In this document: in pieces, positions 31,035-48,650 of the stretch
Numbering within the stretch: the first letter of the stretch is position 1
Layout of the letters: each line of letters begins with the position of its first letter
DNA from: Oscillospiraceae bacterium
Lineage (GTDB): Bacteria > Bacillota > Clostridia > Oscillospirales > Oscillospiraceae
Reading direction: 5' to 3'
DNA length: 64,000 nucleotides
Assembly (NCBI GenBank): GCA_017538965.1
Contig: JAFYHU010000017.1
Coordinates: forward strand, 1-64,000
Made by a program: the position numbers and the translations under genes
Notes under the pieces: generated by a model
The model's input: the letters and a program-made list of their open reading frames with translations, nothing else
What the model was told of the DNA's origin: nothing
Database searches by the model: none

Positions 31035-31083
31035 GCCTTTCCGCAGGCATGATTCCATAAAGATCGAATCAAAAATAATAAAA

Positions 31084-31133
31084 GAAGCATTTCGGTTTTC
31101 AGCAGGAGAAACCTGAAATGCTTCCTTTTTTGT
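31084..31133. terminator. terminator between glgB and psd
   Basis: GAAGCATTTCGGTTTTC (31084-31100) pairs with GAAACCTGAAATGCTTC (31108-31124), followed by CTTTTTTG. Serves convergent glgB and psd. Confidence 0.88.
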
Positions 31134-31140
31134 AATCCGA

Positions 31141-31980
31141 TTATTCGAGACAACGCTGTTCACAGCGGTTGGCAATCCACATGCCCTGTTCCACGCGCAC
31201 TTCCTTCCCCTCTCCCAGCTTCGCTGCAAGCTCCGGAAGAAGACAGATTCTTCCTTGCTCAAACAGAAGCACAATCGTGGAGCCGGCCAGCTCAAAATGC
31301 CCTTTTTCCTGTCCGCGGCAGAAACGGGACCCGCCCTCCCGGTTGGCGATCCCGCCCACGATCAGCGCACCGATTTCCGTCTGCACAACAGGGCCGAAAT
31401 TCTCCGTGGCCAGCAGGCACCAGGACCGGCGGTTCAGAACAAAGACGGGATAGGTTTTGCAGGCGATGGGCTGTACGCTGTGAAGCCGGCCTTCGATATA
31501 GTGGTTCTCCCCCTGGTATCCGTCGTCAATATAGGAATAGTGATGATAGTCAGACGCACAGAGGCGGAATACCAGACAGGTGCCGCCCCGATACCGCTCG
31601 GCAAGCTCTTCGTCCTGCAGGAAATCCTTCAGCTGATAGCGGGAGTGTTTTATGGCAAAACAGCTGCTTTCGGCAATCGGATAGGCCGTCAGCCAGCCGT
31701 CACAGGGGCTGATCAAATGATCCGGGGTGAAATCGACTTCCCGGTCTTCCCGCTCCCGGACAAAGAAATCCCGGAAAGAACGGTACTGCTGCAGTTCCTC
31801 CTGTGAGATGGGAATTGCATTCTGCCGGACGTACCGGCGAATGCAGGGCCGGGACCAGTCCGAGCGCAGATAGCGAACCATCAGACGGTCGGCGTGAGAC
31901 TTCTGAATCAGCTTCAGAAAACTGCGTCCGAACACGGTTCCATACAGGAAGCGGACAGAGGAATCGTTTTCTTTCTTCAT
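31141..31980 (-). CDS. psd: phosphatidylserine decarboxylase
   Basis: Makes phosphatidylethanolamine from phosphatidylserine; self-cleaves to create its pyruvoyl group. Triad and cleavage site: Asp in LISPCDGWL, His in ASDYHHYSYI, and the AGST motif (FELAGSTIVLLFEQG, about residue 240), a variant of the usual LGST. 279 residues, full length. Overlaps pssA by ATGA. Confidence 0.92.
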   Translation of the reverse strand: MKKENDSSVRFLYGTVFGRSFLKLIQKSHADRLMVRYLRSDWSRPCIRRYVRQNAIPISQEELQQYRSFRDFFVREREDREVDFTPDHLISPCDGWLTAYPIAESSCFAIKHSRYQLKDFLQDEELAERYRGGTCLVFRLCASDYHHYSYIDDGYQGENHYIEGRLHSVQPIACKTYPVFVLNRRSWCLLATENFGPVVQTEIGALIVGGIANREGGSRFCRGQEKGHFELAGSTIVLLFEQGRICLLPELAAKLGEGKEVRVEQGMWIANRCEQRCLE

Positions 31981-32624
31981 TTGGTTTCGGTCAAGGGATC
32001 ATCTTCGGATTCCTGGAAGCCGCAGGACGGCAGCTCGTGCCTTCCCGTCAGAGAGGGTTTTTTTATGCGGAACGGAGTGAGAAATGCCGCAGCGGTAAGG
32101 AGCAGGACAAAGGGACCGAAAAACGACATCGGCCAGTGATACTTCCCGCCGAGACCGTACAGCAGGGGAAAAATCAGCGCCGAGCAGGTGACGGGAAGCC
32201 CAAGATAGAACCGTCTGCGGCCTTCTTCCCGATTCTGCCGCTCTTCCTCGTCCACATTGAACCAGGCCAGACGGATCAGCGCACAGAGCAGATAGACTGC
32301 GGAGGGCAGCCAGCGCAGCTTTCCGCCGCTGCCGGTGTAGACGATCAGCGCCGGAAGGGCGCCAAAACAGATCAGATCGCTCAGCGAATCAATCTGAACG
32401 CCGAAGCGCTTTTCCTGACGGGTTCGCTCCATGGTAGAGGCAATCTTCCCGTCAAACATGTCGCAGACACCGGCAATCATCAGACAGATCAATGCCGCAG
32501 TGATTTTCCCCCCGAAGGCAAAGGTGATGCCTGCGAAACCCGTCAGCATCCCCAGATAGGTGAGAATCACCGTGTAATTATAGAATCCGAGCAATCTTAT
32601 CGATTCTTTTGAAGATTTATCCAT
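31977..32624 (-). CDS. pssA: CDP-diacylglycerol--serine O-phosphatidyltransferase
   Basis: A 215-residue membrane enzyme making phosphatidylserine. The CDP-alcohol transferase signature is CDMFDGKIASTMERTRQEKR then FGVQIDSLSD (about 54-83). Several hydrophobic spans, and a hydrophilic tail. GGAGG before the ATG. Coupled to psd, giving a two-step route to phosphatidylethanolamine. Confidence 0.92.
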   Translation of the reverse strand: MDKSSKESIRLLGFYNYTVILTYLGMLTGFAGITFAFGGKITAALICLMIAGVCDMFDGKIASTMERTRQEKRFGVQIDSLSDLICFGALPALIVYTGSGGKLRWLPSAVYLLCALIRLAWFNVDEEERQNREEGRRRFYLGLPVTCSALIFPLLYGLGGKYHWPMSFFGPFVLLLTAAAFLTPFRIKKPSLTGRHELPSCGFQESEDDPLTETK

Positions 32625-32678: not shown

Positions 32679-33320
32679 TTATCCGAATTCTCCGGGCTTT
32701 TTCAGAACGCGGTAGACGCCTTTCTTTTCGTGCGCCAGCACGCCGCGATCACAGAAATCCTGAAATACCCGGATCATATGGCGGCTGCTTACGTTCAGGG
32801 AGCGGGCGATGTGGGCGATGCCGGTGATGCTCTGGCCGGGTTCCGCCCGCATCAGAGAACGCTCTACACGGGATTTGAGCGGGATGTTGTCATGCCCCTG
32901 TGCGGCGCCGTGCAGTTTGTTGGCAAGAGACAGACAAATCCGATGCAGGAACACTGGATCGCGGAGCAGCTGCTGCCGGTAGGACTCCATATGCAGGGCA
33001 ATCGTATAGACATCGGTTCTGGCTTCCACAAAAAAGGGCATAAAGTCCGCATTGATCAGTTCCATCTCTCCGAGCATCTGTACTTCATAATGATTCGTAT
33101 CGAAGCTGATGGTGGAACTCTCGTCAGGCATATCATACAGCAGGAGCTCTCCTTCCGCCACGAACTGGAAATAGCGGCTCGGAGAAAACGAACTGGTCAG
33201 CAGTTCCCCGGGAGAATAATGAAGCAGAAACAGCACCGGCTGACAGGAACTGAAATACTCATTGATCCCGAGCTTCTCAATATAGGCATCCCGCAGTTTT
33301 CTGTTGTTGACGGTTTCCAT
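32679..33320 (-). CDS. Crp/Fnr-family transcriptional regulator
   Basis: A 213-residue regulator with an N-terminal cyclic-nucleotide-binding-like beta barrel (about 20-120) and a C-terminal winged helix (SITGIAHIARSLNVSSRHMI, the HTH, then FQDFCDRGVL). No Fnr-type cysteine cluster is visible, so the signal is not obviously iron-sulphur. It is divergent from the glycoside operon, and a Crp-type palindrome sits between them. It may also be read with pssA-psd, which start 55 bases downstream. Confidence 0.88.
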   Translation of the reverse strand: METVNNRKLRDAYIEKLGINEYFSSCQPVLFLLHYSPGELLTSSFSPSRYFQFVAEGELLLYDMPDESSTISFDTNHYEVQMLGEMELINADFMPFFVEARTDVYTIALHMESYRQQLLRDPVFLHRICLSLANKLHGAAQGHDNIPLKSRVERSLMRAEPGQSITGIAHIARSLNVSSRHMIRVFQDFCDRGVLAHEKKGVYRVLKKPGEFG

Positions 33321-33424: not shown

Positions 33425-33466
33425 GTGACACGTGTCACCACAGATCGCCTGATTCTTTTATATACT
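33425..33466 (+). promoter_or_regulatory. Crp-type operator and promoter of glycoside operon
   Basis: TGTGACACGTGTCACC (33424-33439) contains the perfect 14-bp palindrome GTGACACGTGTCAC (33425-33438) and fits the Crp consensus TGTGA-N6-TCACA. TATACT (33461-33466) is the -10 with no good -35. The operator centre lies about 41.5 bases before the predicted start, the class II activator position. Confidence 0.7.
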
Positions 33467-33521
33467 GAAAACAGCAAAATTACAAGCCCCAAAATTATAT
33501 TTTTATGAGAGGAGACATCCT

Positions 33522-34667
33522 ATGGAAGAAAAAATTCTCGGCTACGGCGTCATCGGCACCGGCGTCTACTGCGACCACTATTTCGGCACCCTCGGCCCGG
33601 TATTCAAAAATGTGCGCCCGGTCGGCTGTTCGGATCTGAATACCGAAGCTGCAAAAGCCGCGGCAGCACGCTGGAATGTCCCCAAGGTCTACACGACAGA
33701 AGAGATGCTGGCGGACCCCGAAGTGGACATCGTCATCATTCTCACCAATCCCTCCTCCCACTACAGCCTGACCATGGCCGCCCTGAAGGCGGGCAAACAT
33801 GTCTACTGCGAAAAGCCTCTGGCGGACAGCCTGGAGCAGGCCAATGAAATCGTCGAGTTTGCCGCCGAAAAGGGCCTCTTTGTCGGCGCCGCGCCCGACA
33901 CCTTCCTGACGCCGGAATTCCAGACGGTCCGCAAGCTTCTGGACGAGGGCGCCATCGGCAAGGTCATCAGCGTCACGGCCAACTATGTCGGACCCGGCGC
34001 GGACCTCTGGCACCCTAATGCCGGCTACCTCTACAAGAAGGGCGTCGGCCCGGCCCTGGATATGGGCCCCTACTTCCTGACCTCGCTGGTCACCCTGCTC
34101 GGCCCCATCGAAAGCGTCTTCTGCTACGCCAACCGCGGCTGGGATGTGCGTAAGATCTGGGACAAGGATGTGGAAGTGGAAGTCAACACCAACTACTGCG
34201 CCGTCCTGAAATTCCGCAGCGGCGTCATCGGCAACCTGAACCTGACCTATGACGAGTGGAAGTCCAGCCTGCCCGGCATGGAGCTCTACGGCACTGACGG
34301 CGTCCTCTTTGCCCCCGACCCCAACGCCATGATGGGACCCATCAAGCTGCTGAAGGCCGAGGACTTCAAGGCCCTGGTCAACGGCAAGGGCGACAACATG
34401 GGTGCCCGCCTCGGCGCCATCTACGGCCCGGAGAGCTGGGGGCTCTTTACCGAGATCGATACGCTGGCGCCCCGCGTAGGGAATCAGCGCGGTTCCGGCG
34501 TGTCCGACATGGCAGCGGCCATCACGGAAGGCCGCAGGCCCCGCGTGAGTGCCGACCTCTGCCGCCACGTCACCGAGGGTATCAACGCCTTTGACGTGAG
34601 CGTAAAGACCGGCGAACCCTACAAGATGACCACCACGTTTGAAATGCCCGCCGCCATGGTATTTTAA
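33522..34667 (+). CDS. Gfo/Idh/MocA-family oxidoreductase, candidate glycoside 3-dehydrogenase
   Basis: A 381-residue NAD(P)-dependent sugar oxidoreductase. Rossmann loop GVIGTGVYC (residues 6-14), EKP motif YCEKPLA with Lys at residue 98. In characterised C-glycoside pathways (DgpA, CarA, DfgE) such an enzyme oxidises the sugar C3 hydroxyl so that the C-C bond can be cleaved; that role is inferred from the next two genes. First gene of the nine-gene operon; AGAGGAG before the ATG. Confidence 0.83.
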   Translation: MEEKILGYGVIGTGVYCDHYFGTLGPVFKNVRPVGCSDLNTEAAKAAAARWNVPKVYTTEEMLADPEVDIVIILTNPSSHYSLTMAALKAGKHVYCEKPLADSLEQANEIVEFAAEKGLFVGAAPDTFLTPEFQTVRKLLDEGAIGKVISVTANYVGPGADLWHPNAGYLYKKGVGPALDMGPYFLTSLVTLLGPIESVFCYANRGWDVRKIWDKDVEVEVNTNYCAVLKFRSGVIGNLNLTYDEWKSSLPGMELYGTDGVLFAPDPNAMMGPIKLLKAEDFKALVNGKGDNMGARLGAIYGPESWGLFTEIDTLAPRVGNQRGSGVSDMAAAITEGRRPRVSADLCRHVTEGINAFDVSVKTGEPYKMTTTFEMPAAMVF

Positions 34668-34682
34668 GAGAGGAGAGACGGC

Positions 34683-35555
34683 ATGTACAGATCTGATATT
34701 ATCGGACCCAAGAGAGGCGTTGCTCTCTACAGCTATTCCGCCGAGTTCGGCTTTGAGAAGACCCTGGAAGACTGCTTCGAGGATCTGAAGGACATGGGCG
34801 CCACCGGCGTCGAGATCCTCGCCAACACCCACATCGAGAATTACCCCTATCCCACGGACGAATGGGTCGACTACTGGTTCTCCCTCTGCGACAAGTACCA
34901 GATCGAGCCGGTCGAATACGGCCACTGGATCGACTGCCGTGTGCTGCAGGACCGCATGCTGACCACCGAAGAGACCGTCGAGCGCCTCGAGCAGGATCTG
35001 CGTCTGGCCCACCGCCTGGGCTTTAAAGTGCTGCGCACCAAGATGAGCGTCATCAACGACGCGCTCGACCCCGTCGAGAACTGGCGCGACATCATCCGCG
35101 GCGCGCTGCCCCTGGCCGAACGTCTCGGACTCACCATGTGCCCCGAGATCCACATCCCCACCAACCTCAAGAGCCAGATGATCGAAGATTACGTGGCCTT
35201 CATCAATGAAACCGGCACGAAGAGCTTCGGACTGAACATCGACTTCTCGGTCTTCCGCCATAAGTTCAACGAGGGCGAGTTCGTGGATCCGCACTTCGTT
35301 CCCAACGAGCCCGAAGACATCATCCCCCTGCTGCCCTACATCTACTGCTGCCATGCCAAGTTCATCAACATGAACGACGAGTTTGAGGAGACCACCATCC
35401 CCTACAAGGAGGTCCTCACCATTCTCCGCGATCACGGCTGGAACGGCTATCTGCTCAGCGAGTACGAAGGCGCCGACAAGTACGACCAGGGCTACGAGGT
35501 CGGCCAGACACTCCGGAAGCACCACATCATGATGAAGAACATTCTGGGTTATTAA
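34683..35555 (+). CDS. sugar isomerase/epimerase TIM barrel, candidate C-glycoside deglycosidase alpha subunit
   Basis: A 290-residue xylose-isomerase-like TIM barrel. Predicted metal ligands: E155 (CPEIH), D187 (NIDFS), H224 (CCHAKF) and E260 (SEYEG), the set used for manganese in this fold. C-deglycosidases such as DgpC, CarC and DfgA are of this type and work only with a small DUF6379 partner, which is the next gene here. It would cleave 3-oxo-C-glycosides to the aglycone. An ordinary sugar epimerase is the alternative. Confidence 0.75.
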
Positions 35556-35567
35556 GGAGGCGACAAC

Positions 35568-36008
35568 ATGGATAAACAGGTCATTCAATCGGTCGGATTC
35601 CGCAATATCGAAGAAAACGGCGAAGTCACCGGCTTCCAGCTCAAAATCCGCCTGCCCTACTACCGGGGCGTATATCTCAGCCAGATCAAGCCCGGCCACC
35701 TGATCGTGGACGGCGAGACCTTCGGCGCGGACGAGATCATGTGGCGCGTCAACGGCGAGGATTATACCTATGCCGACATGCGCAAGGACTGCAAAGACCA
35801 CTGGCATCCGCTGGAGCCCGCTACCCTGCTCGTCAAAAAGCCCGGCGGCCTGAAGCAGGGCTTCCACGAGATCACCTACGGCTTCTGCTGCACGCATTCC
35901 TACATGCCGCCCTTCATGGAGGCGCTGGAAGATCCGGACAAGCCTGCGGTCATCTATTTCCGTGAATTCGGCGAGAACCAGCACCATCGCCGCCTGCTGA
36001 TTGTATAA
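35568..36008 (+). CDS. DUF6379 protein, candidate C-glycoside deglycosidase beta subunit
   Basis: A 146-residue protein matching the small subunit of C-glycoside deglycosidases (DgpB, CarB, DfgB). Features: TGFQLKIRLPYYRGVYLSQI (about 20-39), VDGETF, the KKPGGLKQG block and a late SYMPPF. The function is known only as partner of the TIM-barrel subunit, so this gene is the best evidence for the pathway. AGGAGG before the ATG, 12 bases after the previous gene. Confidence 0.78.
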   Translation: MDKQVIQSVGFRNIEENGEVTGFQLKIRLPYYRGVYLSQIKPGHLIVDGETFGADEIMWRVNGEDYTYADMRKDCKDHWHPLEPATLLVKKPGGLKQGFHEITYGFCCTHSYMPPFMEALEDPDKPAVIYFREFGENQHHRRLLIV

Positions 36009-36022
36009 GGAGGAGAAGGAAT

Positions 36023-37066
36023 ATGCTGAAAATCGGTATTCTGGGCTGCGGCAAGATCGCCCAGGTCCGGCACATCCCCGAGTATGCCGACAATCCCAAC
36101 TGCGAGCTCGTCGGCTTCTTCAACCCCACCAAGTCCCGCGCCGAGGACATGGCTGCCAAGTACGGCGGCAAGGCCTATGACACGGCGGAAGAGCTGCTCG
36201 CCGATCCCGAAATCGACGCGGTTTCGGTCTGCGCGGCAAACAACGCCCATGCGGAGCTCACCATCAAAGCCCTGAAGGCCGGCAAGCACGTCCTCTGCGA
36301 GAAGCCCATGGCCATCTCTCTCGCGGACTGCGAAGAGATGGTGAAGGTCGCGAAGGAAGAGGGCAAGCTCCTCATGATCGGCCAGAACCAGCGGTTGACC
36401 CGCGCCCATGAGCTGGCCAGAAAGATGGTCGCCGACGGCGAAATCGGCCGGGTCATTACCTTCCGCACCACCTTCGGCCACGGCGGCCCCGAGACCTGGA
36501 GCATCACGCCGGGCAAGAACACCTGGTTCTTTGACAAGACCAAGGCCGCCATGGGCGCCATGGCCGACCTCGGTATCCACAAGACCGACCTGATCCAGTT
36601 CCTGCTGGGAAGCAACGTAGTGCGCACGACGGCCAAACTCGCCACGCTGGACAAGCGCGGCGCGGACGGCAACCTGATCGGCGTTGACGACAACGCCATC
36701 TGCATCTACGAGATGGCCAACGGCACCGTCGGCACCATGACGGCCAGCTGGACCTACTACGCCGCCGAGGACAACTCGACCGTGCTCTACGGCACCGAAG
36801 GCGAGATGCGCATCTATGACGACCCCGCGCATTCCATCGTCCTGAAGAAGAAGGGCGAAGAGCCGAAGTATTTCGACGTCGAGCAGATCCAGACCAACGA
36901 CAACCAGACCAAGTCCGGCATCATCGACCTGTGGGTCGACTGCCTGCTGGAGGGCAAAGAGTCTCCGATCAGCGGCGAGAGCGTCCTCTCCGCCATGCGG
37001 GCGGTCTTCGCCTCGATGGAGAGCTCAGAGACCGGCAAGGCGGTAGAGATTCCGGCTAACAAGTAA
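36023..37066 (+). CDS. Gfo/Idh/MocA-family oxidoreductase, second copy
   Basis: A 347-residue NAD(P)-dependent oxidoreductase: GILGCGKIAQVRH (N-terminal dinucleotide loop), EKP motif LCEKPMA with Lys at residue 94, and HKTDLIQFLLG in the C-terminal half. Paralogous to the first gene but clearly diverged. It could act on a different sugar or recycle the 3-keto sugar released by the deglycosidase. Starts 14 bases after the DUF6379 gene. Confidence 0.83.
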   Translation: MLKIGILGCGKIAQVRHIPEYADNPNCELVGFFNPTKSRAEDMAAKYGGKAYDTAEELLADPEIDAVSVCAANNAHAELTIKALKAGKHVLCEKPMAISLADCEEMVKVAKEEGKLLMIGQNQRLTRAHELARKMVADGEIGRVITFRTTFGHGGPETWSITPGKNTWFFDKTKAAMGAMADLGIHKTDLIQFLLGSNVVRTTAKLATLDKRGADGNLIGVDDNAICIYEMANGTVGTMTASWTYYAAEDNSTVLYGTEGEMRIYDDPAHSIVLKKKGEEPKYFDVEQIQTNDNQTKSGIIDLWVDCLLEGKESPISGESVLSAMRAVFASMESSETGKAVEIPANK

Positions 37067-37076
37067 GGAGGAAGCT

Positions 37077-38000
37077 ATGATTCATTTCGGACTGCTGACC
37101 GCCATTCTGGACGGCTGGAATTTTGAAGAGACCGTCGACACCGCGGCGGAAATGGGCTTCGAGTGCCTCGAAGTCGCCTGCTGGCCCGCCGGCAAGGCCG
37201 AGCGCCGTTATGCCGGCGTCAGCCACATCGATGCCGAGCGCGTCCTGGAAGACGATGCGTACGCCAAGTACGTGGTCGACTATGTGACCGGCAAGGGCAT
37301 GCACATCTCGTCCCTGGCTTACTATCCCAACGTGCTGGACCCGAACCCCGAGAAGAGCGAGCCCGCCATCGCCCACCTGAAGGCTCTGATCAAGGCCTCC
37401 GCCAAACTGGGCGTTAACATGGTCACCACCTTCATCGGCCGCGACCAGCACAAGACCGTGGAGGAGAACATCGAGCTCTTCAAGAAGGTCTGGCTACCCC
37501 TCATCAAGCTGGCCGAAGAGCAGGGCGTAAAGGTCGCCATCGAGAACTGCCCCATGCTGTTCGGGCCTGACCAGTGGCCCGGCGGGCAGAACCTGATGTG
37601 CACCCCGGCCATCTTCCGCAAGCTGTTTGAGATTTGCCCGAGCCCGAACTTCGGCCTGAACTTCGACCCCAGCCACTATGTCTGGCAGGGCCTCGACTAT
37701 GTGCAGACCGTGCATGAGTTCAAGGACAAGCTCTTCCACATCCACTTCAAGGACATCAAGCTCTATCCCGAGAAGCTCCGCGAGGTCGGCGTGCTGGCCT
37801 ATCCGCTCGAGTACATGAGCCCGAAGATCCCGGGCCTCGGCGATGTCGACTGGGGTGCCTATGTCTCGGCTCTCAACGACATCCGCTACAACGGCGATGC
37901 CGTCATCGAGGTCGAGGACAAGGCCTTCGAAGGCAGCCGCGAGGATATCCTGAACTCCATCCGCCTGGCCAAGCGCTACCTGAACAATTTCATCATCTGA
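37077..38000 (+). CDS. sugar isomerase/epimerase TIM barrel, second copy
   Basis: A 307-residue xylose-isomerase-like barrel. Metal-ligand candidates: E156 (IENCP), D197 (NFDPSH), H223 (HIHFKD) and E278 (VIEVED). Probably handles the released keto-sugar (epimerase or 3-keto-sugar processing), comparable to DfgC-like genes in related loci. AGGAGG precedes the ATG. A stem-loop follows it. Confidence 0.78.
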   Translation: MIHFGLLTAILDGWNFEETVDTAAEMGFECLEVACWPAGKAERRYAGVSHIDAERVLEDDAYAKYVVDYVTGKGMHISSLAYYPNVLDPNPEKSEPAIAHLKALIKASAKLGVNMVTTFIGRDQHKTVEENIELFKKVWLPLIKLAEEQGVKVAIENCPMLFGPDQWPGGQNLMCTPAIFRKLFEICPSPNFGLNFDPSHYVWQGLDYVQTVHEFKDKLFHIHFKDIKLYPEKLREVGVLAYPLEYMSPKIPGLGDVDWGAYVSALNDIRYNGDAVIEVEDKAFEGSREDILNSIRLAKRYLNNFII

Positions 38001-38012
38001 GTCGTTCCCGCG

Positions 38013-38040
38013 CCTCTCCGCCGTATGAGCGGCGGAGAGG
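38013..38040 (+). promoter_or_regulatory. intercistronic stem-loop
   Basis: CCTCTCCGCC (38013-38022) and GGCGGAGAGG (38031-38040) pair perfectly, followed by A-rich sequence rather than U. It may set relative mRNA levels or protect the 5' segment. Confidence 0.6.
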
Positions 38041-38072
38041 AAATAAAAAGATTAACAGGAGGATACTCTTCC

Positions 38073-39488
38073 ATGGACGAAACCGTTGCCACCCCAAAAG
38101 CCCCCAAGAAAAGGAAGGGCATGAGCTGGAAACTTCTGACCGGTTACGGCCTCGGCGAGGTCGGCTGCCAGCTGAGCTGGTACATGATCAACAGCTATCT
38201 GAACATCTTCTACACCGATATCGTCGGTTTGTCGGGCGCTGCCATCTCGGCCATCGTGCTCATCGCCCGTGTCTGGGATACCATCAACGACCCGATGATG
38301 GGCCAGATTGCCGACCGCACCCATACCCGCTGGGGTAAATTCCGTCCCTATCTGATCTTCACGCCTCCCTTCCTCGCGCTGTTCAACGTGCTGACCTTTA
38401 CGGTCTTCCCGGTACAGGGCGCCGCAAAAGTCATCATCTGCGGCATCTGCTATATCCTCGCCGGCATGGCCTATACCGCCTGCTCGATTGCCTATCAGGC
38501 CCTGCTGAACGTAATCTCTGTCGACTCGCGTGAGCGCCAGCTGCTCGCCACTGCCCGCAGCACCGGTGCCTCCATCATCGGCATCATCCTCTCGTTGGTT
38601 GCCATGCCGACCATTCTGTACTTCAGCAACACCTTCCAGACGGACGGCACCAAGATGGCCGACGCCCACGGCTACTTCATGGGCACGCTGCTTATCTCGC
38701 TGCTGATGATGCCGGTGTTCTGGCTCTGCGCCGCGATCTGCAAAGAGACCTACACGGAAGAGCTGCATAAGGATCACGTGGAGAATATGGGCTTTGTGGA
38801 AAACATGAAGGGCCTGTTCCAGAATGACCAGCTGCTCATGGTCGTCATCGCCACCATCCTCGGTGCCATCTGCGTCACCGGCCGTTACGGAATCCTGGTC
38901 TACCATGTCATCTATGTCGTGGGCGGCCCCCAGTACATCTCCATCATGTTTACCGCCATGACCGTCGGCCAGCTGGTCGGCACTCTGACCGTGCCCTGGG
39001 GCACCAAGACTTTCGGGAAGAAACGCTACATGATCATCATGAACGTTGTCATGGCGCTCGGTTTTATTGCGCTTTACCTTTATCCGACCAACAATCCCTA
39101 CTTCCTGATCGGTGCCTCCTTCATCGGCTCCCTCGGCTTCGGCGCCCCCGCCATCTGCTACGGCATGGTGGGCGACTCGCTGGAGTATGCCGACTGGAAG
39201 CTCGGCAAGCGTCAGGAAGGCCTGGCCGCGTCCATGCTGTCCTTCGGCGTCAAGCTCGCCACCGCGCTTTGTGCGCCTGTGGTCCTGCTGCTTGAGGCGG
39301 TCGGCTATGTTCCCAATGTTGAACAGACCGAAGCTGCCAAGCACGGCATCAACTTCATGGTCAACATGCTGCCGGCCATTCTGGCTTTCGTATCCTGCAT
39401 CCCCCTGATCTGGTACAAGCTGGATGACAAGCGCGTCAGAGAGATCCGTGCCGACCTCGAAGCCGGCAAACACGCCTGGGATCAGTAA
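38073..39488 (+). CDS. GPH-family glycoside/cation symporter
   Basis: A 471-residue, roughly 12-span MFS carrier of the glycoside-pentoside-hexuronide type (MelB-like). Signature: NDPMMGQIADRTHTRWGKFR (TM2-3 loop). It is expected to import a sugar or glycoside with a cation, here the operon substrate. ATG at 38073 chosen because AGGAGG is upstream at the right distance; the frame continues further 5'. Equivalent to the transporter gene in known C-glycoside loci. Confidence 0.88.
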   Translation: MDETVATPKAPKKRKGMSWKLLTGYGLGEVGCQLSWYMINSYLNIFYTDIVGLSGAAISAIVLIARVWDTINDPMMGQIADRTHTRWGKFRPYLIFTPPFLALFNVLTFTVFPVQGAAKVIICGICYILAGMAYTACSIAYQALLNVISVDSRERQLLATARSTGASIIGIILSLVAMPTILYFSNTFQTDGTKMADAHGYFMGTLLISLLMMPVFWLCAAICKETYTEELHKDHVENMGFVENMKGLFQNDQLLMVVIATILGAICVTGRYGILVYHVIYVVGGPQYISIMFTAMTVGQLVGTLTVPWGTKTFGKKRYMIIMNVVMALGFIALYLYPTNNPYFLIGASFIGSLGFGAPAICYGMVGDSLEYADWKLGKRQEGLAASMLSFGVKLATALCAPVVLLLEAVGYVPNVEQTEAAKHGINFMVNMLPAILAFVSCIPLIWYKLDDKRVREIRADLEAGKHAWDQ

Positions 39489-39506
39489 TCCCGGATAACA
39501 GACACC

Positions 39507-39540
39507 ATATGACCGGATCCCTCTCGGAATCCGGTCATAT
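39507..39540 (+). promoter_or_regulatory. intercistronic stem-loop, weak terminator
   Basis: ATATGACCGGAT (39507-39518) and ATCCGGTCATAT (39529-39540) form a perfect 12-bp stem followed by TCTT. It probably allows partial read-through into the hydrolase genes. Confidence 0.65.
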
Positions 39541-39557
39541 TCTTAAGGAGTAAGAAT

Positions 39558-40592
39558 ATGCAGTTCGAAACCATCCAACTGAACGAAAAACGGAACGTGA
39601 CGCTCACCGTCATGGCGCAGGACATCGGCGGTGAATTCCGCGGTGTGACCGCCAGACCGGCCGTGCTGATCCTGCCGGGCGGCGGCTATATGTTCTGCTC
39701 GGACCGCGAGGCCGAGCCGGTGGCGATGCCCTATCTGAAAGCGGGCTTTCAGGCTTTCATTCTGCGATATTCGACCGGGGAGCACGGCCACTGGCCAAAC
39801 CCGCTGGAGGATTACGAGCAGGCCATGGCGCTGATCCATGCGCGGGCGGAAGAATGGCATGTGATCCCGGACCAGATCGCCGTGATCGGCTTTTCCGCCG
39901 GCGGGCATCTGGCCGGCGCGGCGGCGACCATGTCCGTCAACAGACCCAACGCGGCGATTCTGGGCTATGCGGTCCTGCGCGCGGACACTGCAGCGGAGAT
40001 CGGCGTGACCATCCCCGGCATTGCCGAGCTGGTCGATGAAAAGACCTGCCCCTGCTTCCTCTTCGCCACGCGCACCGACAGCGTGGTTCCCATTCAGAAC
40101 ACGCTGGACATGCTGAATGCCCTGAACCGGGCGCAGACCAGCTTTGAATGCCACATCTACGGCTACGGTCCTCACGGATATTCTACGGGCGATCCTTCTC
40201 TGCTGGGCAGCGGCGTGATGATCCCGGACCGCGCACAGGACTGGGTTGATGACAGCATCGTCTGGCTGCGCGATCTGTTCGGTGTCTTCGGCGCCGACGG
40301 ACAGGCGGAGCCGGTCTGCCGCGCGCATGTAACCGACGACGCGGAAGCATGGCTCTCGCTTGACTGCAGCGTCAGCCGGATTTTCGGCAATGCGGAGGCA
40401 CAGCGGATGCTGACGGATCTGATTGCCGTCATGCGCGAAAAGATCGTACCCTTTGCGCCGGGCATGAGCTTTGAAGAGATGATGCAGGCCATGAGCCGCA
40501 TGACGCTGCGCCAGGTGCTTTCGGAGAGGCGGATCGAAACCGACCGCTTCCATGAACTGGACGAAGCGCTGCGGCGGATTCCGAACATCTGA
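39558..40592 (+). CDS. alpha/beta-hydrolase, acetyl-esterase-like
   Basis: A 344-residue hydrolase. The oxyanion loop is LILPGGGYM and the nucleophile elbow GFSAGGHL (Ser about residue 116). Asp in FATRTDSVVP and His in YGPHGYS complete a triad. The first 240 residues resemble acetyl-xylan esterase/BD-FAE-type enzymes, and a C-terminal extension of about 90 residues is helical. It could strip acyl groups from the glycan or glycoside. No signal peptide. Confidence 0.8.
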   Translation: MQFETIQLNEKRNVTLTVMAQDIGGEFRGVTARPAVLILPGGGYMFCSDREAEPVAMPYLKAGFQAFILRYSTGEHGHWPNPLEDYEQAMALIHARAEEWHVIPDQIAVIGFSAGGHLAGAAATMSVNRPNAAILGYAVLRADTAAEIGVTIPGIAELVDEKTCPCFLFATRTDSVVPIQNTLDMLNALNRAQTSFECHIYGYGPHGYSTGDPSLLGSGVMIPDRAQDWVDDSIVWLRDLFGVFGADGQAEPVCRAHVTDDAEAWLSLDCSVSRIFGNAEAQRMLTDLIAVMREKIVPFAPGMSFEEMMQAMSRMTLRQVLSERRIETDRFHELDEALRRIPNI

Positions 40593-40606
40593 CAGGGAGA
40601 TAAACG

Positions 40607-42229
40607 ATGAAGCCTTGTTTTCATAACCCGATCATTCCCGGTTTCTATCCCGACCCGTCGATCTGTCGGGTGGGGGAGGAGTATTATCTGGTCTGCTCCA
40701 GCTTTGAACTCTGCCCCGGCATCCCGCTGTTTCACAGCCGGGATCTGCAGCATTGGGAGCAGCTATGTTATGTGATGACGCCGGAAAACGGCTTTCACGT
40801 AGAGAAAAACTGCGGAAACGGCGGCGTCATGGCCCCGACAATCCGCTATCACGACGGAGTCTTCTACGTTATCAACTGCAATTTCAGCGACCGGGGGAAC
40901 TTTGTTGTCACGGCCGAAAACCCTGCCGGCCCCTGGTCCGAGCCCCACTGGCTCACGGATGTGCCGGGCATTGACGCATCCATCTTTTTTGACGAAGACG
41001 GTCAATGCTATATCATGGGCACGGCCGACAACTGGCCGGACGGCAAGGGCGGTCTGCGCCAGGGCATCTGGGCCGCGAGCTATGACATTCAGAACTTCCG
41101 CATGGACGGCGAGCCGGTTCCGCTCTGGGGCGGCGCGATGGCAGGCGCGGCCTCACCAGAGGCGCCGCATATCTACCATATCGGCGGCTGGTATTATCTG
41201 CTGATCGCCGAAGGAGGTACGGAGTTTTTCCATTCGGTCACCGTCGCCCGCAGCCGCGGCGTTTTCGGTCCCTACGAGGGCTATGCGGGCAACCCGGTTC
41301 TGACCATGCGGCATCTCGGCCGGAAAGCAGCCATCCAGAACGCCGGACACGCCGACCTTGCGGAACTGCCGGACGGCAGCTGGTACGCGGTGTTCCTGGC
41401 CTCGCGCCTGATCGGCGGGGTGAGCAAGAACCTGGGCCGTGAGACCTTTCTTGTGCCGGTGTGCTGGGAAGCAGACTGGCCGCTGTTCACCCCGGAAACC
41501 GGCAAGGTGGAGTGGAAATACGACGCCCCGGAGAATCTGCCCTGGGCAGAAATCCCCGCCGAGCCGGTGCGCGACTGCTTTGACGGCGAAGCACTCTCTC
41601 TGGACTGGTCCTTCTGGGGCAGGCCCTACGAGAAGTTCTGGGAAATCGACAACAGCCTTACGCTCCGCTGCCTGCCGCAGACGCTGGCCGACCCGCTGCA
41701 GCCCATGAGCATGGAGCATACGCACTCGGAAGAGAACTTCGTATCCTTTGTAGCCCGGCGCCGCCTGCAGCCCCACTGCCGTTTCGCGTGCCGGATGCGC
41801 TTTGACCCTGCCGAGGGAGAGTCAGCGGGCATCGCTGTGGCGCAGGCCATGAACCACCAGGTCCATCTGCAGCTTACGCAGGAGAGCGGAGAGAAAAAGC
41901 TTCAGCTTCTGCTCTTCACTGCGGACTACGACCTGCCGCCCTATCTTCCGGGCTTTCGCTCCGTAACCAATCGCGCGGTTCTGGCAGAGAGCCCCTGTGA
42001 AGCACAGGATCTGGTTCTCGAGATGGAGCTGAATGAAAACGATTACATCTTCCGCTTTGGGCCGGACGAGGGACACCTGACCGAGTTCGGCCGCGCAGAC
42101 GGCGCACGGATTAACCCCGAAAAGGTCGGCTGCATGGTGGGAGAGATGCTCGGCATGTTTGCCAGCGGCAACGGAAATACAAGCAGCCACTGCGCTGTGT
42201 TCGACTGGGCCGAATATCAGGATCTTTGA
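40607..42229 (+). CDS. glycoside hydrolase family 43
   Basis: A 540-residue GH43 protein: NPIIPGFYPDPSICRVGEEY holds the general base Asp (residue 16). A five-bladed propeller is followed by a C-terminal beta-sandwich (from about 320). Members act as beta-xylosidases or alpha-arabinofuranosidases. No signal peptide, so the substrate is internal, consistent with the GPH importer. Followed directly by the GH3 gene. Confidence 0.88.
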   Translation: MKPCFHNPIIPGFYPDPSICRVGEEYYLVCSSFELCPGIPLFHSRDLQHWEQLCYVMTPENGFHVEKNCGNGGVMAPTIRYHDGVFYVINCNFSDRGNFVVTAENPAGPWSEPHWLTDVPGIDASIFFDEDGQCYIMGTADNWPDGKGGLRQGIWAASYDIQNFRMDGEPVPLWGGAMAGAASPEAPHIYHIGGWYYLLIAEGGTEFFHSVTVARSRGVFGPYEGYAGNPVLTMRHLGRKAAIQNAGHADLAELPDGSWYAVFLASRLIGGVSKNLGRETFLVPVCWEADWPLFTPETGKVEWKYDAPENLPWAEIPAEPVRDCFDGEALSLDWSFWGRPYEKFWEIDNSLTLRCLPQTLADPLQPMSMEHTHSEENFVSFVARRRLQPHCRFACRMRFDPAEGESAGIAVAQAMNHQVHLQLTQESGEKKLQLLLFTADYDLPPYLPGFRSVTNRAVLAESPCEAQDLVLEMELNENDYIFRFGPDEGHLTEFGRADGARINPEKVGCMVGEMLGMFASGNGNTSSHCAVFDWAEYQDL

Positions 42230-42246
42230 ACGACAGGAGAGAAAAC

Positions 42247-44448
42247 ATGAAACTGACACAGGAACAGAAAAGCTTTGTGGAGGATCTTCTCTCACGCATG
42301 ACGCTGGACGAGAAGATCGGCCAGATGAATCAGGAGTCACCCTCCATCGTAGGCGGCTTTGACGTACCCTTTTCCGAACTCATTGAGATGATGACCGACG
42401 GCCGCATCTCGCAGGAGGAATTCGGGCGGATCATGGCCAACGCCACGCAGGACTTTCACGAGGACGAGATCCGCGCGGGGCTCGTCGGCAGCATGATGGT
42501 CAACGACCCGCGCAAAAACAACGAGCTGCAGAAAATCGCCGTCGAGGAGAGCCGGCTGGGCATCCCCCTGATTATCGGCTTTGACGTGATCCACGGATTC
42601 CGCAGCGTCTTTCCCATCGCCATCGCCGAAGCCTGCAGCTTCGACGATGCCCTCTTTGAAGAGACCGCGCGCATGGCGGCGGCGGAATCCCGGGCCCACG
42701 GTATCAACTGGAACTTTGCCCCCATGATCGACGCGGCGCGGGATTCCCGCTGGGGCCGCGTATCCGAGGGCCCGGGGGAAGATCCCTTCCTCGGCAGCCG
42801 TTTTGCCCGCGCCAAGATCCGCGGCCTGCAGAACGACCGGAGCAGCCCGCTGAACTATGTGGCCGCCTGCACCAAGCACTATGTGGCCTACGGCGCCTGC
42901 GAAAGCGGCCGCGATTACAACACCGTCTCGATGTCCGTATCCAATCTGTATAACGTCTATCTGCCTGCCTTCCGCGCAGCCATGGATGAGGGCGCGGCGA
43001 CGGTGATGGCGGCCTTCAACGACCTCAACGGCGTGCCCTGCACGGTGAACCGGTGGCTGCTGCGCGAGGTTCTGAAAAAAGACTTCGGACTCGAGGGCTT
43101 CGTAGTCAGCGATGCCAACGCCATCAGAGAATGCGTCACCCACGGCATCGCCGCGGACGACCGCGATGCGGGCGTTCAGGCTGCCCTGGCCGGCATGGAC
43201 ATGGATATGGGCACCCATATCTATAAGGATTTCCTGAAGGCCGAAGTGGAGAAAGGGACCGTGCCGATGACCGTCATCGACGAGGCCGTGCGCCGCATCC
43301 TTTCCGTCAAGGTCTGGCTCGGCCTGTTCGAAAACCCCTACGTGCCGGAAGCGCTGATCGAGGCCTATGAAAAGAGCCTGCCCGAGAAGCATGTTGCCCT
43401 CTGCCGCCGGGCGGCGGAAGAATCGATGGTCCTGCTGAAGAACGAGGGCGGGATCCTGCCGCTCCGGCGCGGACAGAAGATCAGCCTGGTCGGCAGGCTG
43501 GCCGACGACGCCAATGAGGTCTGCGGCGCCTGGGCCATGGCCTGGAAGCCGGAGGACTGCGTCTCGATTCTGACCGGTCTGAAGGAAGCCGGCGCCGATG
43601 TGTGCTACTACCCCTGCGGAGGACCGGAGGGCGATATCAATCTTGAGGAGGCCGACCGGGCCTGCCTCGAGGGCGACGTGATCGTTGCCGTGGTCGGCGA
43701 GACCGATGCCATGTCCGGCGAGGCAAGCTCGAAAGCGGAGATCTCGCTGCCAGGCGGCCAGCGTGCACTGCTTGAGCGGCTGCTTCAATCCGGCAAGCCG
43801 GTGGTCACCGTCCTGATGAACGGGCGCCCGCTGGCACTGGGCTGGGAGGCCGAACACATGCCGGCGATTCTCGAGGCCTGGCACCTCGGCATCCGGATGG
43901 GCGATGCCGTGGCGGCGGCGCTGCTCGGCGACGTCAACCCCGCGGGCAAGCTCTCGTCGTCCTTCCCGTCCGTGACCGGGCAGTGCCCGGTGTATTACAA
44001 TCACCCCAGCACCGGCCGCCCCGGCAGCAAGAGCAAGTTTACCTCGCGCTATCTGGACGCGCCCTGGGATTCCCTCTTCCCCTTCGGCCACGGCCTGAGC
44101 TATACGAGCTTTACGTATGAAGACCTGCGGGTTGGGGAACGCGGCGAAGAACTGGAGATCGCCATTCGGCTGAAGAACACCGGCGAGCGGGAGGGCACGG
44201 AAATTGCCCAGCTCTACATGCAGGACGTGACAGCCAGCCTCGTCCGCCCGGTGAAGGAACTCAAGGACTACTGCAGAGTAACGCTCAGCCCCGGTGAGGA
44301 GCGGGAGATTCGCTTTACGCTGAAAAAGAAAGACATGGGCTTCTACGACAACGCCGGCCGGTATTTGCTGGAAGACGGTCTCTTCCGCCTCTTCGTCGGC
44401 ACCAGCAGCCGCGACTGCCTGATGCAGGAGATCGAACTGAAATTCTGA
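42247..44448 (+). CDS. glycoside hydrolase family 3 beta-glycosidase
   Basis: A 733-residue GH3 enzyme. The N-terminal barrel carries the nucleophile D289 in FVVSDANAI (most members have SDW). The (alpha/beta)6 domain follows (from about 400), then a fibronectin-III-like C-terminal domain (GTEIAQLYMQD). Cytoplasmic. Likely beta-glucosidase or beta-xylosidase. The ATG at 42247 follows AGGAGA; TTG at 42226 overlaps the GH43 stop. Last gene of the operon. Confidence 0.9.
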   Translation: MKLTQEQKSFVEDLLSRMTLDEKIGQMNQESPSIVGGFDVPFSELIEMMTDGRISQEEFGRIMANATQDFHEDEIRAGLVGSMMVNDPRKNNELQKIAVEESRLGIPLIIGFDVIHGFRSVFPIAIAEACSFDDALFEETARMAAAESRAHGINWNFAPMIDAARDSRWGRVSEGPGEDPFLGSRFARAKIRGLQNDRSSPLNYVAACTKHYVAYGACESGRDYNTVSMSVSNLYNVYLPAFRAAMDEGAATVMAAFNDLNGVPCTVNRWLLREVLKKDFGLEGFVVSDANAIRECVTHGIAADDRDAGVQAALAGMDMDMGTHIYKDFLKAEVEKGTVPMTVIDEAVRRILSVKVWLGLFENPYVPEALIEAYEKSLPEKHVALCRRAAEESMVLLKNEGGILPLRRGQKISLVGRLADDANEVCGAWAMAWKPEDCVSILTGLKEAGADVCYYPCGGPEGDINLEEADRACLEGDVIVAVVGETDAMSGEASSKAEISLPGGQRALLERLLQSGKPVVTVLMNGRPLALGWEAEHMPAILEAWHLGIRMGDAVAAALLGDVNPAGKLSSSFPSVTGQCPVYYNHPSTGRPGSKSKFTSRYLDAPWDSLFPFGHGLSYTSFTYEDLRVGERGEELEIAIRLKNTGEREGTEIAQLYMQDVTASLVRPVKELKDYCRVTLSPGEEREIRFTLKKKDMGFYDNAGRYLLEDGLFRLFVGTSSRDCLMQEIELKF

Positions 44449-45807: not shown

Positions 45808-47784
45808 TCACTTTTTCGTTTTACTGTTCCTATATATTGATATCCCACCAAGGCTTAGGTTGGTCTCATCAATGTCAACATTGATTTCATTGCCATCCAG
45901 CTCAATTTGTGATAGCAGCTTAAAATCGACCTTATTGTTTTTCGTTTGCGGTAATTCTTTATAGAACTTGAACTTTGATGGCATCTGCCTTGACACAGAT
46001 GTTTCGTTCTCGCTCAGCCGATGAATAATATCTTCAACTATTCTGACCTCATCACGATCTTCAATCAAGTCGGTGTTCAGTTGGATATGTGCAATAGGCA
46101 TGATTCCATTTTTTATGGCATCAAAATAGCCTGTAATAACACAATTCTGGATGTACGAGATAGACTCAAAAACACGCTCTACTTCGCGAGGTTTATATTT
46201 AAATCCATCAAAACGTGCAAACGTCCTGTCTCTCCGTTCATCAAACCTAAAAATGCCAGATCTATTCATGGTGACAATATCTTTGGTCCTTATATAGTCT
46301 TTGCCATCCATTGTAAAGTGTTCCACAATGGTTTCGCCATTCATTTTTCCATGTGTAATTGCTGGGGACGACACGACATTTTCGCCTGTTAGATACTCTT
46401 CCCCTTCCTCGAACTTTAATGGCACCAATCTGTCTGTTATATCAGGATCAACGATACCGTATACTACACCGGGCAATGGTATACCGATGGTTTCTGGCTC
46501 TCCATATTCGCCGGTTGCGAAGCACATACACCCGGCTGTTTCGCTCATTCCATGGCCCTTCTCGATAATTGCTTTACTACCATTCTCAATAAGGTACTGT
46601 TTGAGACGGACTTCTGTTGCTCTATTCATTGTATCTCCGCCAAACATCACCTTACGGATTCCATATATATCAGCCTTTTTCAGATAATAGCAATCAGGCA
46701 GTCCTCCTGCCCATGCAGGGGCAGTCATAAGAATATTGGGCTTGTATTTCTTTACCAAATAACCGAATTCCCCGATTTGAAACTCAGGGACCACAAAGGA
46801 GTGAGCCAAAGAAACCTTATTCAGCAGCATGTTGTCACACAAGCCGAAAGGAGCAAAATAGGGCAATTCTTGAACGACCCTCTCACCAGGCTTAAATAAG
46901 ACCTTCCCATAGAACAGGTGCTGCATGGCAGCAATTAAATTGGCGTTTGATAGCTCAATGGGTTTCGGCAAGGACCCGCTCGTTCCGGAAGTATGACCTG
47001 TATATACAATTTGATCCGAATCACTATCTTTGGTGAACGACATGCCCTTAGAATCCCGGAGCAAATCGAGGTAATTAACTATCCGGAGTGGAGACGCCGC
47101 AATAGTTTTCTTTAGAGCTTCACCGACGGATTTGCTTTCTTTGACCATTCTAAGAACAATGTCAACCGCCGAAAGCCGATTAATACTTTCTCCCTTGGAT
47201 CGGTGGTTTTTTATTCTATTATAGTTCACTAGATCGTTTATATAATCCAGCTTTCCTCTTAGCGTCATATCGTCCATTGCGCTCAGAACAACAATCTCTT
47301 CTATTCCGAGATCTTTCAATTCGTTTTCGATATAGCAAAGAGTAGCAATGTATACCCGATCTAGTGCAAGGATACTCTTGGGCCGTTCCCTTTTGAATAT
47401 CTCCAGCTGCTTTCTTGCGCTTGCTTTCATATCCATAGAATCTGGCCTTGGATCAATAAAATCCAAATGAGCACCCATTTGAGCAGCGCCAAAAAACAAC
47501 TGGTTGATGCTCGGCATATTTGGAACCATGCACAGAATCTTGTCGTTCTTATGGATTCCTAAACCTTGTAAAGCGCGGGATGCATCATTGATTCTTTCAA
47601 TGGATTCGGCGTATGTGTAATCGCGGGTGTAGTAAGTGTCATCGATCATATCTTCGTGTCCGATGCTTTTACCATACACGTAATCCGTAATGTTTCCAGT
47701 CGGATACTCAACAGTGATTTCTTTCCCGTAATACTTCAACCACGGCATATCAATATGCGGGTAGCCAGTCAGTTTTGCCTCCAT
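45808..47784 (-). CDS. AMP-binding enzyme (acyl-CoA synthetase/ligase family)
   Basis: A 658-residue adenylate-forming enzyme. The phosphate loop is YTGHTSGTSGSLPKPIELSN (core TSGTSGSLPK), followed by GMSETAG (A5) and DERRDRTFARFDGFKYKPRE (A8 region). The C-terminal Lys lies in TKNNKVDF. Such enzymes activate a carboxylic acid as an acyl-adenylate; the acid is unknown. AAGGAGAGC precedes the ATG. AT-rich codons distinguish it from neighbours. A collapsed paralogue lies 0.9 kb downstream. Confidence 0.83.
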   Translation of the reverse strand: MEAKLTGYPHIDMPWLKYYGKEITVEYPTGNITDYVYGKSIGHEDMIDDTYYTRDYTYAESIERINDASRALQGLGIHKNDKILCMVPNMPSINQLFFGAAQMGAHLDFIDPRPDSMDMKASARKQLEIFKRERPKSILALDRVYIATLCYIENELKDLGIEEIVVLSAMDDMTLRGKLDYINDLVNYNRIKNHRSKGESINRLSAVDIVLRMVKESKSVGEALKKTIAASPLRIVNYLDLLRDSKGMSFTKDSDSDQIVYTGHTSGTSGSLPKPIELSNANLIAAMQHLFYGKVLFKPGERVVQELPYFAPFGLCDNMLLNKVSLAHSFVVPEFQIGEFGYLVKKYKPNILMTAPAWAGGLPDCYYLKKADIYGIRKVMFGGDTMNRATEVRLKQYLIENGSKAIIEKGHGMSETAGCMCFATGEYGEPETIGIPLPGVVYGIVDPDITDRLVPLKFEEGEEYLTGENVVSSPAITHGKMNGETIVEHFTMDGKDYIRTKDIVTMNRSGIFRFDERRDRTFARFDGFKYKPREVERVFESISYIQNCVITGYFDAIKNGIMPIAHIQLNTDLIEDRDEVRIVEDIIHRLSENETSVSRQMPSKFKFYKELPQTKNNKVDFKLLSQIELDGNEINVDIDETNLSLGGISIYRNSKTKK

Positions 47785-47838: not shown

Positions 47839-47984
47839 CTGTTCCGGAAGGTAGACAATACGGTACAGCAAAAAAAGCATGAAACGAAAGCGCAGCACGC
47901 CTTCGAATCATGCTTTTTTGTGCGTTCTGCTCGGATAATCCGATTATATCAAAACTGTTTCATATTGTCTACCTTCTGAAACAG
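47839..47984. terminator. stem-loop within 22-base imperfect inverted repeats
   Basis: GGAAGGTAGACAATA at 47846-47860 is mirrored, as TATTGTCTACCTTC, in the end of the recombinase gene (47963-47976). Between them GCAAAAAAAGCATGA (47868-47882) and TCATGCTTTTTTGTGC (47908-47923) form a terminator for the recombinase gene. Confidence 0.65.
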
Positions 47985-48585: not shown

Positions 48586-48650
48586 TGTTTTACCTCCTGC
48601 GTTTGTGGTTTCAACCATTATCTACAGCAGGCAAAACGGTACACCAGTAT

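Follow-up and report, generated by a model that had tools for sequence, protein, structure and literature searches.

C-glycoside deglycosidases (CGDs) break the very stable carbon–carbon bond that joins a plant flavonoid to its sugar moiety, and a locus in which genes for such an enzyme stand among genes for a transporter, an esterase, and two glycosidases raises the question of whether they all serve one pathway, and on which substrate. One such locus lies in a 64,000-nucleotide stretch of an Oscillospiraceae bacterium (positions 1 to 64,000 of contig JAFYHU010000017.1, assembly GCA_017538965.1), the whole of which we refer to as the window. Nine co-directional plus-strand open reading frames (ORFs) at 33522–44448, separated by gaps of 10–69 bp or one 4-bp overlap, code for two Gfo/Idh/MocA oxidoreductases (Gfo1 and Gfo2), two barrels (TIM1 and TIM2), a PF19906 protein (CGDB), a GPH symporter, an esterase-like hydrolase (EST), GH43, and GH3; the ORF coordinates and the Pfam and NCBIfam matches bear out a preliminary description of nine plus-strand genes with these domains. 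We propose, with a probability of roughly 0.6, that the operon imports a decorated plant flavone 6-C-glucoside, strips it in the cytoplasm, cleaves the carbon–carbon bond, and returns glucose.

The argument begins with TIM1 and CGDB, whose homology to DfgA and DfgB is, on sequence comparison, far beyond chance. TIM1 matches the DfgA chain 7bvs_A at 4e-156 across residues 1–289 (75% identical in the alignment), and CGDB, encoded 12 bp after the alpha gene, matches the DfgB chain 7bvs_B at 1e-57. CGDB is also 60% identical to DfgB of locus L050 (Eubacterium sp. RUI459), where DfgA is identical to the 289 residues of the 7bvs chain; the names DfgC, DfgD, and DfgE are given here, presumptively, to the L050 ORFs after dfgB, from the published cluster name and gene order. 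CGDB scores 129.5 bits against PF19906 (gathering cut-off, 27.6), a family formerly called DUF6379 and since renamed C-glycoside deglycosidase beta subunit, and its gene is the one PF19906 gene found in the window genome (93.9% complete). AgCGD2 is reported, in the available text of Mori et al. (PMC8563793), to have the metal ligands Glu147, Asp179, His269, Lys271, and Glu305 and the catalytic residues His149 and Glu307. Mapped onto these by motif spacing, the ligands (two Glu, one Asp, one His, and one Lys) are kept in TIM1 as E155, D187, H224, K226, and E260, and the catalytic residues as H157 and E262. By homology and active-site residues, the TIM1/CGDB pair is a CGD of the DfgAB type. The preliminary description had proposed a CGD from the barrel and its DUF6379 neighbor, and held that a failure of the pair to group with CGD subunits would speak against it; this did not occur, and the best match of each is its DfgA or DfgB counterpart. 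The E-D-H-E metal sets that it saw in both barrels are also present, E155/D187/H224/E260 in TIM1 and E156/D197/H223/E278 in TIM2, the latter read off an alignment and presumably equivalent to the TIM1 ligands.

The available parts of PMC8563793, which names structure entries for DfgA, DgpC, and AgCarC2 in its reference list, report that EuCGD acts on 6-C- and not on 8-C-glycosides, and propose that Leu128 of its alpha and Pro115 of its beta subunit clash with an 8-C substrate. Both of these residues are kept here, as L128 in alpha and, with a one-residue shift, P114 in beta, and we therefore predict a 6-C-glycoside preference. CGDB genes can be numerous elsewhere, with nine copies in G009 (a 1.2-Mb incomplete assembly), eight in G014, and 11 in G155 (L and G numbers are our own designations for loci and genomes). 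Several CGDB matches lie within open frames of 470–540 aa, some of them followed on the same strand by a TIM1 match, as in the fused chain 8qrz; we take 8qrz, 8qvc, and 9m3a to be CGD structures.

Do the symporter, esterase, and glycosidase genes belong with the CGD? They could form a second module in the same transcript, serving acylated arabinoxylo-oligosaccharides and unrelated to the CGD genes. These are families typically associated with xylan use: GH43 has as its nearest solved relatives the beta-xylosidase 5z5d and the arabinofuranosidases BoGH43A/B, and the Pfam family BD-FAE takes its name from a feruloyl/acetyl xylan esterase (PMC8165983, available text). We therefore turn to a sample of loci gathered by scanning named genomes with a DfgA alignment, of which the best 80 of 166 relatives were searched in their flanks by tblastn for partner genes. 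GH43 (at least 43% identical) is found in 18 of these 80 loci, GH3 (at least 60%) in 14, EST (at least 60%) in 12, and GPH (at least 40%) in 28; where there are at least 8 kb on both sides (36 of the 80), GH43 is present in 14. GH43, GH3, and EST occur together in ten loci, six of them of the window type (L021, L022, L023, L027, L028, and L029) and four from other lineages (L066, L067, L078, and L079), in three gene orders in all, including DfgC-DfgD-DfgA-DfgB-AraC-GPH-EST-GH43-GH3 in Butyrivibrio (sp. INlla16 for L067 and sp. AC2005 for L079) and GH3-GH43-GPH-DfgA-DfgB-DfgE-EST in L066 and L078. Such repeated proximity to DfgAB in differing orders weighs against two unrelated modules. Eight of the ten window-type loci have 10 kb after DfgA (L026 and L037 end too early to judge), and seven of these eight carry GPH, EST, and GH43, six of them with GH3 as well (the exception is L024). 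The two-module explanation gains from L025, which keeps the CGD core and has none of GPH, EST, GH43, and GH3 within 10 kb after DfgA. L025 also has an ABC transporter (ATPase, permease, and binding protein by Pfam; L025:3164–6741) between Gfo1 and DfgA, which suggests an alternative importer; L159 has ~3.7 kb of unread sequence at the corresponding place.

The genome-level evidence comes from an even sample of 397 Lachnospiraceae genomes; the family was chosen as that of G067, which is one of the genomes with DfgA. PF19906 is present at E <= 1e-10 in 34 of these, DfgA-type TIM1 at E <= 1e-110 in seven, and GH43 at E <= 1e-150 in eight. The GH43 is at least 50% identical in seven genomes, all within the 34 CGDB-positive ones (hypergeometric probability 1.8e-8, or 1.4e-7 for seven of eight when the 47% match of the CGDB-negative G280 is included; relatedness is ignored, and the 50% line was set after the list was seen). 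The CGD-linked GH43 of G067 itself (49%) fell short of the E-value cut. By comparison, of 190 genomes from this family 104 have a GH43 of any kind, and 13 of the 104 are CGDB-positive, so general plant-polymer use does not readily explain seven out of seven. The GH43 gene and a CGDB gene are no more than 10 kb apart in G360, G065, G462, and G198, and are on separate contigs in G410, G380, and G155; because the nearby CGDB of G360, G198, and G462 is only 30–34% identical to that of the window, the link is not limited to DfgB-type CGDs. A tree of 52 GH43 sequences places the window GH43 and those of CGD loci and CGD genomes, except L085, in one group (support 0.895; 31 leaves, three duplicates), again counting against separate modules, and 20 GH43s from CGDB-negative genomes fall outside it; sampling of the group was mainly by way of CGD loci, and the tree omits L031 (too short) and L123, L124, L141, and L145 (duplicates), with L185 and L079 being the same gene.

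EST is less specific to CGD genomes than GH43. At 50% identity or more it occurs in 11 genomes of the Lachnospiraceae sample, four of them CGDB-positive (P = 0.01, relatedness ignored), and homologs of 40–57% occur without CGD, as two modules would predict; among 60 relatives of the window genome, matches of at least 71% are confined to G032 and G033, both CGD-bearing. Against the lp_1002 arylesterase model NF052620, EST scores 129.7, below the cut-off of 300. On balance, we regard the two-module explanation as unlikely and favor a single C-glycoside pathway. The view of a locus larger than the described core is supported, with GH43, GH3, EST, and GPH recurring beside DfgAB elsewhere and GH43 co-occurring by genome; the assignment of GH43, GH3, and esterase to one system gains support on the same grounds, but less so for the esterase, given its lower specificity.

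In a tree of 59 Gfo proteins, DgpA (7xr9, partial sequence) joins a group that we call Gfo7 (support 0.976), DfgD and DfgE each have their own group, and Gfo1 and Gfo2 constitute two further groups. A Gfo/Idh/MocA 3-dehydrogenase had been expected to feed the CGD, and two Gfo proteins are indeed present, but neither falls in the DgpA or DfgE clade. Gfo1 is most likely the C-glycoside 3-dehydrogenase, judging by where its gene occurs: within the genus, Gfo1 (at least 52% identical) is in six of six CGD-bearing and none of five CGD-lacking genomes tested, whereas the corresponding association is not seen for Gfo2, and Gfo1 lies no more than 60 bp upstream of the alpha gene in eight loci, as the DgpA-clade Gfo7 does in 11. 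Gfo2 and TIM2 are also found together without CGD, with Gfo2 in four CGD-lacking genomes, and Gfo2 is predicted to be the partner of TIM2, in 3-keto-glucose reduction and/or glycoside oxidation. The same occurrences weigh against the reverse assignment, in which Gfo2 is a ping-pong C-glycoside 3-dehydrogenase re-oxidised by 3-keto-glucose and Gfo1 carries out another reduction; this is nonetheless a serious possibility, if somewhat the less probable. The catalytic column has His in Gfo2, DgpA, and DfgE and Tyr in Gfo1 and DfgD, so that Gfo2 shares the K-D-H type of DgpA, its best solved relative (7e-36), and of DfgE, which is reported to oxidise homoorientin (PMC11170127, available text). Gfo2 (at least 45%) is present in 17 of the 80 loci, nine of them window-type, and DfgE in 13, and the two overlap only at L066, which carries two CGD pairs. 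D3dgpA works by a ping-pong mechanism with 3-oxo-glucose, according to the available text of PMC11239390, and the top structural matches of the Gfo1 model are 1,5-anhydrofructose reductases, with others within ~1 Z. Three loci of the same genus in which no CGD was detected (L120, L121, and L122, of G003, G015, and G028) have Gfo2-TIM2 near another Gfo, with another sugar-isomerase-like barrel, an ABC transporter, and a ROK-family gene also at L122; these sets possibly represent an O-glycoside 3-keto pathway.

Among characterised enzymes, TIM2 is nearest in both fold and sequence to AtHYD (8ro4), a 2-hydroxy-3-keto-glucal hydratase, and we predict this activity for TIM2. Preliminary evidence in Agrobacterium tumefaciens, in the available text of PMC10628242, is of AtHYD followed by a Gfo reductase, yielding glucose; a hydratase role for TIM2 would similarly close the redox loop to glucose. 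Both of the xylose-isomerase-like barrels first described are present, but the second is hydratase-like rather than a further CGD subunit. The possibility that TIM2 is another CGD alpha subunit was rejected, its profile and model going to 2zds and AtHYD, and no chain named CGD is among the TIM2 matches listed; AtOGE (8bvk) is absent among the 50 TIM2 structure matches listed, with which a relation is still compatible. TIM2 was also rejected as DfgC, since BLASTP at 1e-3 gives no match between the two. TIM2 (15 loci) and DfgC (17 loci) never occur in one locus among the 80, with a probability of no overlap of 0.018 over the 80 loci and 2e-4 when only the 47 that have a partner gene are counted, relatedness being ignored.

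With no DfgC at the locus, one lyase would have to serve all substrates, and it can be argued that the main substrates for beta-elimination by the CGD-like pair are 3-keto O-glucosides of plant phenolics, with C-glycosides incidental; the nearest solved relative of the missing DfgC is the O-glycoside eliminase AtOGE (1e-27). In the available texts, PuCGE cleaves 3-keto O- and C-glucosides alike (PMC10628242) and D3dgpA oxidises O- and C-glycosides alike (PMC11239390). Set against this are the ~75%/60% identity of the pair to the 6-C-acting EuCGD, with the proposed specificity residues kept, and the cytoplasmic GH3 beta-glucosidase of the operon, which would presumably already handle simple O-glucosides. 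We consider an O-glycoside pathway improbable, and C-glycosides the likelier substrates.

The favored pathway would run as follows. The GPH symporter would import the glycoside, and the esterase, GH43, and GH3 would take off acyl groups together with O-linked pentose or glucose. No signal peptide is apparent by eye at the N-termini of these three enzymes, which would therefore act in the cytoplasm. A Gfo enzyme, most likely Gfo1, would then oxidise C3 of the C-linked glucose, and the alpha/beta CGD would beta-eliminate the aglycone, using Mn2+ and H157 and freeing 2-hydroxy-3-keto-glucal. TIM2 would hydrate this to 3-keto-glucose and Gfo2 would reduce the latter to glucose, such that NAD would be recycled within the pathway. 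In the seventh step, a divergently encoded Crp-like protein would act at the palindrome (33425–33438) to turn on transcription. CGD family membership and operator conservation are observed; we infer the activities, the roles in steps 1–3 and 5–7, and the natural substrate. A more tentative proposal, and one we would not put at even odds, is that the GH43 clade has specialised in the outer sugars carried by C-glycosyl flavones and that, alongside GH3, the esterase, the symporter, the CGD, the hydratase, and both oxidoreductases, the GH43 makes up a complete, redox-closed route from decorated flavone C-glycosides to glucose in herbivore-gut Clostridia.

The palindrome is conserved ahead of Gfo1 in each of the 12 distinct promoters of the window type (the window, L021–L029, L037, and L159, with L022 and L037 nearly identical in sequence), and its first base, 33425, is where the preliminary description began the locus. 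The GTGAC/GTCAC half-sites are exact in ten promoters, and the second is GTCAG in L023 and L026. The distance from operator center to -10 box is 29.5 nt in 11 of the 12 and 28.5 nt in L028. A transcription start 7 nt past the -10 box would put the operator center at -41.5, as for class II activation, for which activator sites are centered at about -41.5. The neighboring Crp-like protein scores 24.8 against PF00027 (cut-off 27.5; 2.2e-5), and its best NCBIfam match is YeiL, at 75 bits against a cut-off of 180. A homolog (50–58%) lies near Gfo1 in 11 of 11 relatives (L021–L029, L037, and L159), on the other strand in nine, whereas L023 and L026 have it on the same strand as Gfo1. Crp-like genes (28–30% identical) are also found on the other strand beside Gfo7-DfgA loci (L036, L038, L063, and L091), and Crp-type control of CGD loci may therefore be more general.

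How does the locus compare with known systems? It resembles the dfgABCDE cluster of Eubacterium cellulosolvens in its adjacent CGD alpha and beta genes (~75%/60% identical) with the same active-site set, and the E. cellulosolvens-type locus L050 (AraC-type regulator-dfgA-dfgB-TIM-Gfo-Gfo-GPH) likewise has a GPH transporter after the enzyme genes. However, there is no DfgC, DfgD, or DfgE ortholog at the window locus (by BLASTP at 1e-3 for TIM2 and DfgC, and by the Gfo tree). Gfo1, Gfo2, and the hydratase-like TIM2 stand in their place, with an esterase, GH43, and GH3 added and a Crp-like protein replacing the AraC-type regulator; by gene content, the locus is not a dfgABCDE operon. The regulator before dfgA at L050 (L050:7340–9772) combines an AraC-type helix-turn-helix with a fused GH39 domain (130.5 bits) and has homologs (25–63%) in many other DfgA loci. 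The window core recurs with other Gfos in L085 and L086, as Gfo7 (DgpA clade)-DfgA-DfgB-TIM2-DfgE-GPH. The logic of an oxidoreductase plus a CGD pair is common to the window and DgpABC of Dorea sp. PUE, which acts on the 8-C-glycoside puerarin, although the window CGD subunits are distant (2e-40 and 2e-14 to the 7bvr chains) and its Gfos lie outside the DgpA clade. In contrast to the A. tumefaciens OGE/HYD/Gfo pathway, the window eliminase is a two-subunit CGD rather than AtOGE, and the operon includes debranching enzymes. CarBC and PurBC of soil actinobacteria are CGD pairs as in the window (PMC12724307, available text; 7dnm is among the TIM1 matches), but these systems use FAD-dependent oxidases (PMC12724307; for CarA, PMC11239390; both in the text available), whereas the window oxidoreductases are Gfo/Idh/MocA proteins.

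Among the window-type relatives that have names are assemblies from goat reticulum and abomasum, and also RUG assemblies, the latter presumably from rumen. Brachypodium produces forms of isoorientin and isovitexin that carry 2''-O- and 6''-O-hexoses (PMC9506550, available text), and given these plant products and the herbivore-gut relatives, decorated grass flavones are a reasonable candidate substrate. The operon most likely uses decorated flavone 6-C-glucosides of herbivore feed. None of the titles listed for CGD terms, with or without glycosidase terms, reports a CGD locus that includes GH43 or GH3, which does not imply absence from print. In their available parts, a 2025 mangiferin paper describes DfgAB as surrounded by carbohydrate-processing genes, with no detail (PMC12101588), a 2021 survey describes accessory genes in the PUE cluster (PMC8398226), and assays in CGD papers use the bare C-glucoside. 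The CGD is the known part of the locus, and the other partners and the recurrent trimming module are the new part; the locus is a testable candidate set, and the GH43 group could mark the use of decorated C-glycosides.

Table 1. Features of the candidate C-glycoside operon and its promoter region (window coordinates)
Feature	Coordinates	Strand	Remarks
Crp/Fnr-like (YeiL-like) regulator, divergent	32679..33320	-	Predicted operon activator
Operator palindrome GTGACACGTGTCAC	33425..33438		Pattern GTGAC[AG][CT][AG][CT]GTCA[CG]; between Crp-like gene and Gfo1
-10 element TATACT	33461..33466	+	Operator center 29.5 nt upstream
Gfo1, Gfo/Idh/MocA oxidoreductase	33522..34667	+	Pfam GFO_IDH_MocA; K-D-Y type; predicted C-glycoside 3-dehydrogenase
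TIM1, CGD alpha subunit (DfgA ortholog)	34683..35555	+	AP_endonuc_2 barrel; 7bvs_A match; predicted Mn site
CGDB, CGD beta subunit (DfgB ortholog)	35568..36008	+	PF19906 (DUF6379); 7bvs_B match
Gfo2, Gfo/Idh/MocA oxidoreductase	36023..37066	+	K94-D182-H186 type; predicted TIM2 partner
TIM2, AP_endonuc_2 barrel	37077..38000	+	Predicted 2-hydroxy-3-keto-glucal hydratase
GPH cation symporter (MFS_2)	38025..39488	+	TIGR00792, 356.5 bits (cut-off 231.35); predicted glycoside importer
EST, BD-FAE/arylesterase-like alpha/beta hydrolase	39558..40592	+	PF20434, 60.9 (cut-off 26.8); predicted deacylase
GH43 + GH43_C2	40607..42229	+	PF04616, 272 bits; predicted arabinofuranosidase/xylosidase for outer pentoses
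GH3 beta-glucosidase, BglX-type	42226..44448	+	NF011678, 687.4 (cut-off 666)

The GH3 ORF opens with a TTG start codon at 42226, with an alternative ATG at 42247. Upstream of the operon, 29061–32624 codes for a CBM48 alpha-amylase-family enzyme (glycogen-branching-like), a phosphatidylserine decarboxylase, and a CDP-alcohol phosphatidyltransferase, and downstream, on the minus strand, are an AMP-binding enzyme (45808–47784) and a resolvase-type recombinase (47944–48618). About 23 kb past the operon, on the same contig but beyond the window (the 62000–76000 region, L165), there is another GPH symporter gene (43% identity), with a Gfo1-like protein (~30%) encoded after it.

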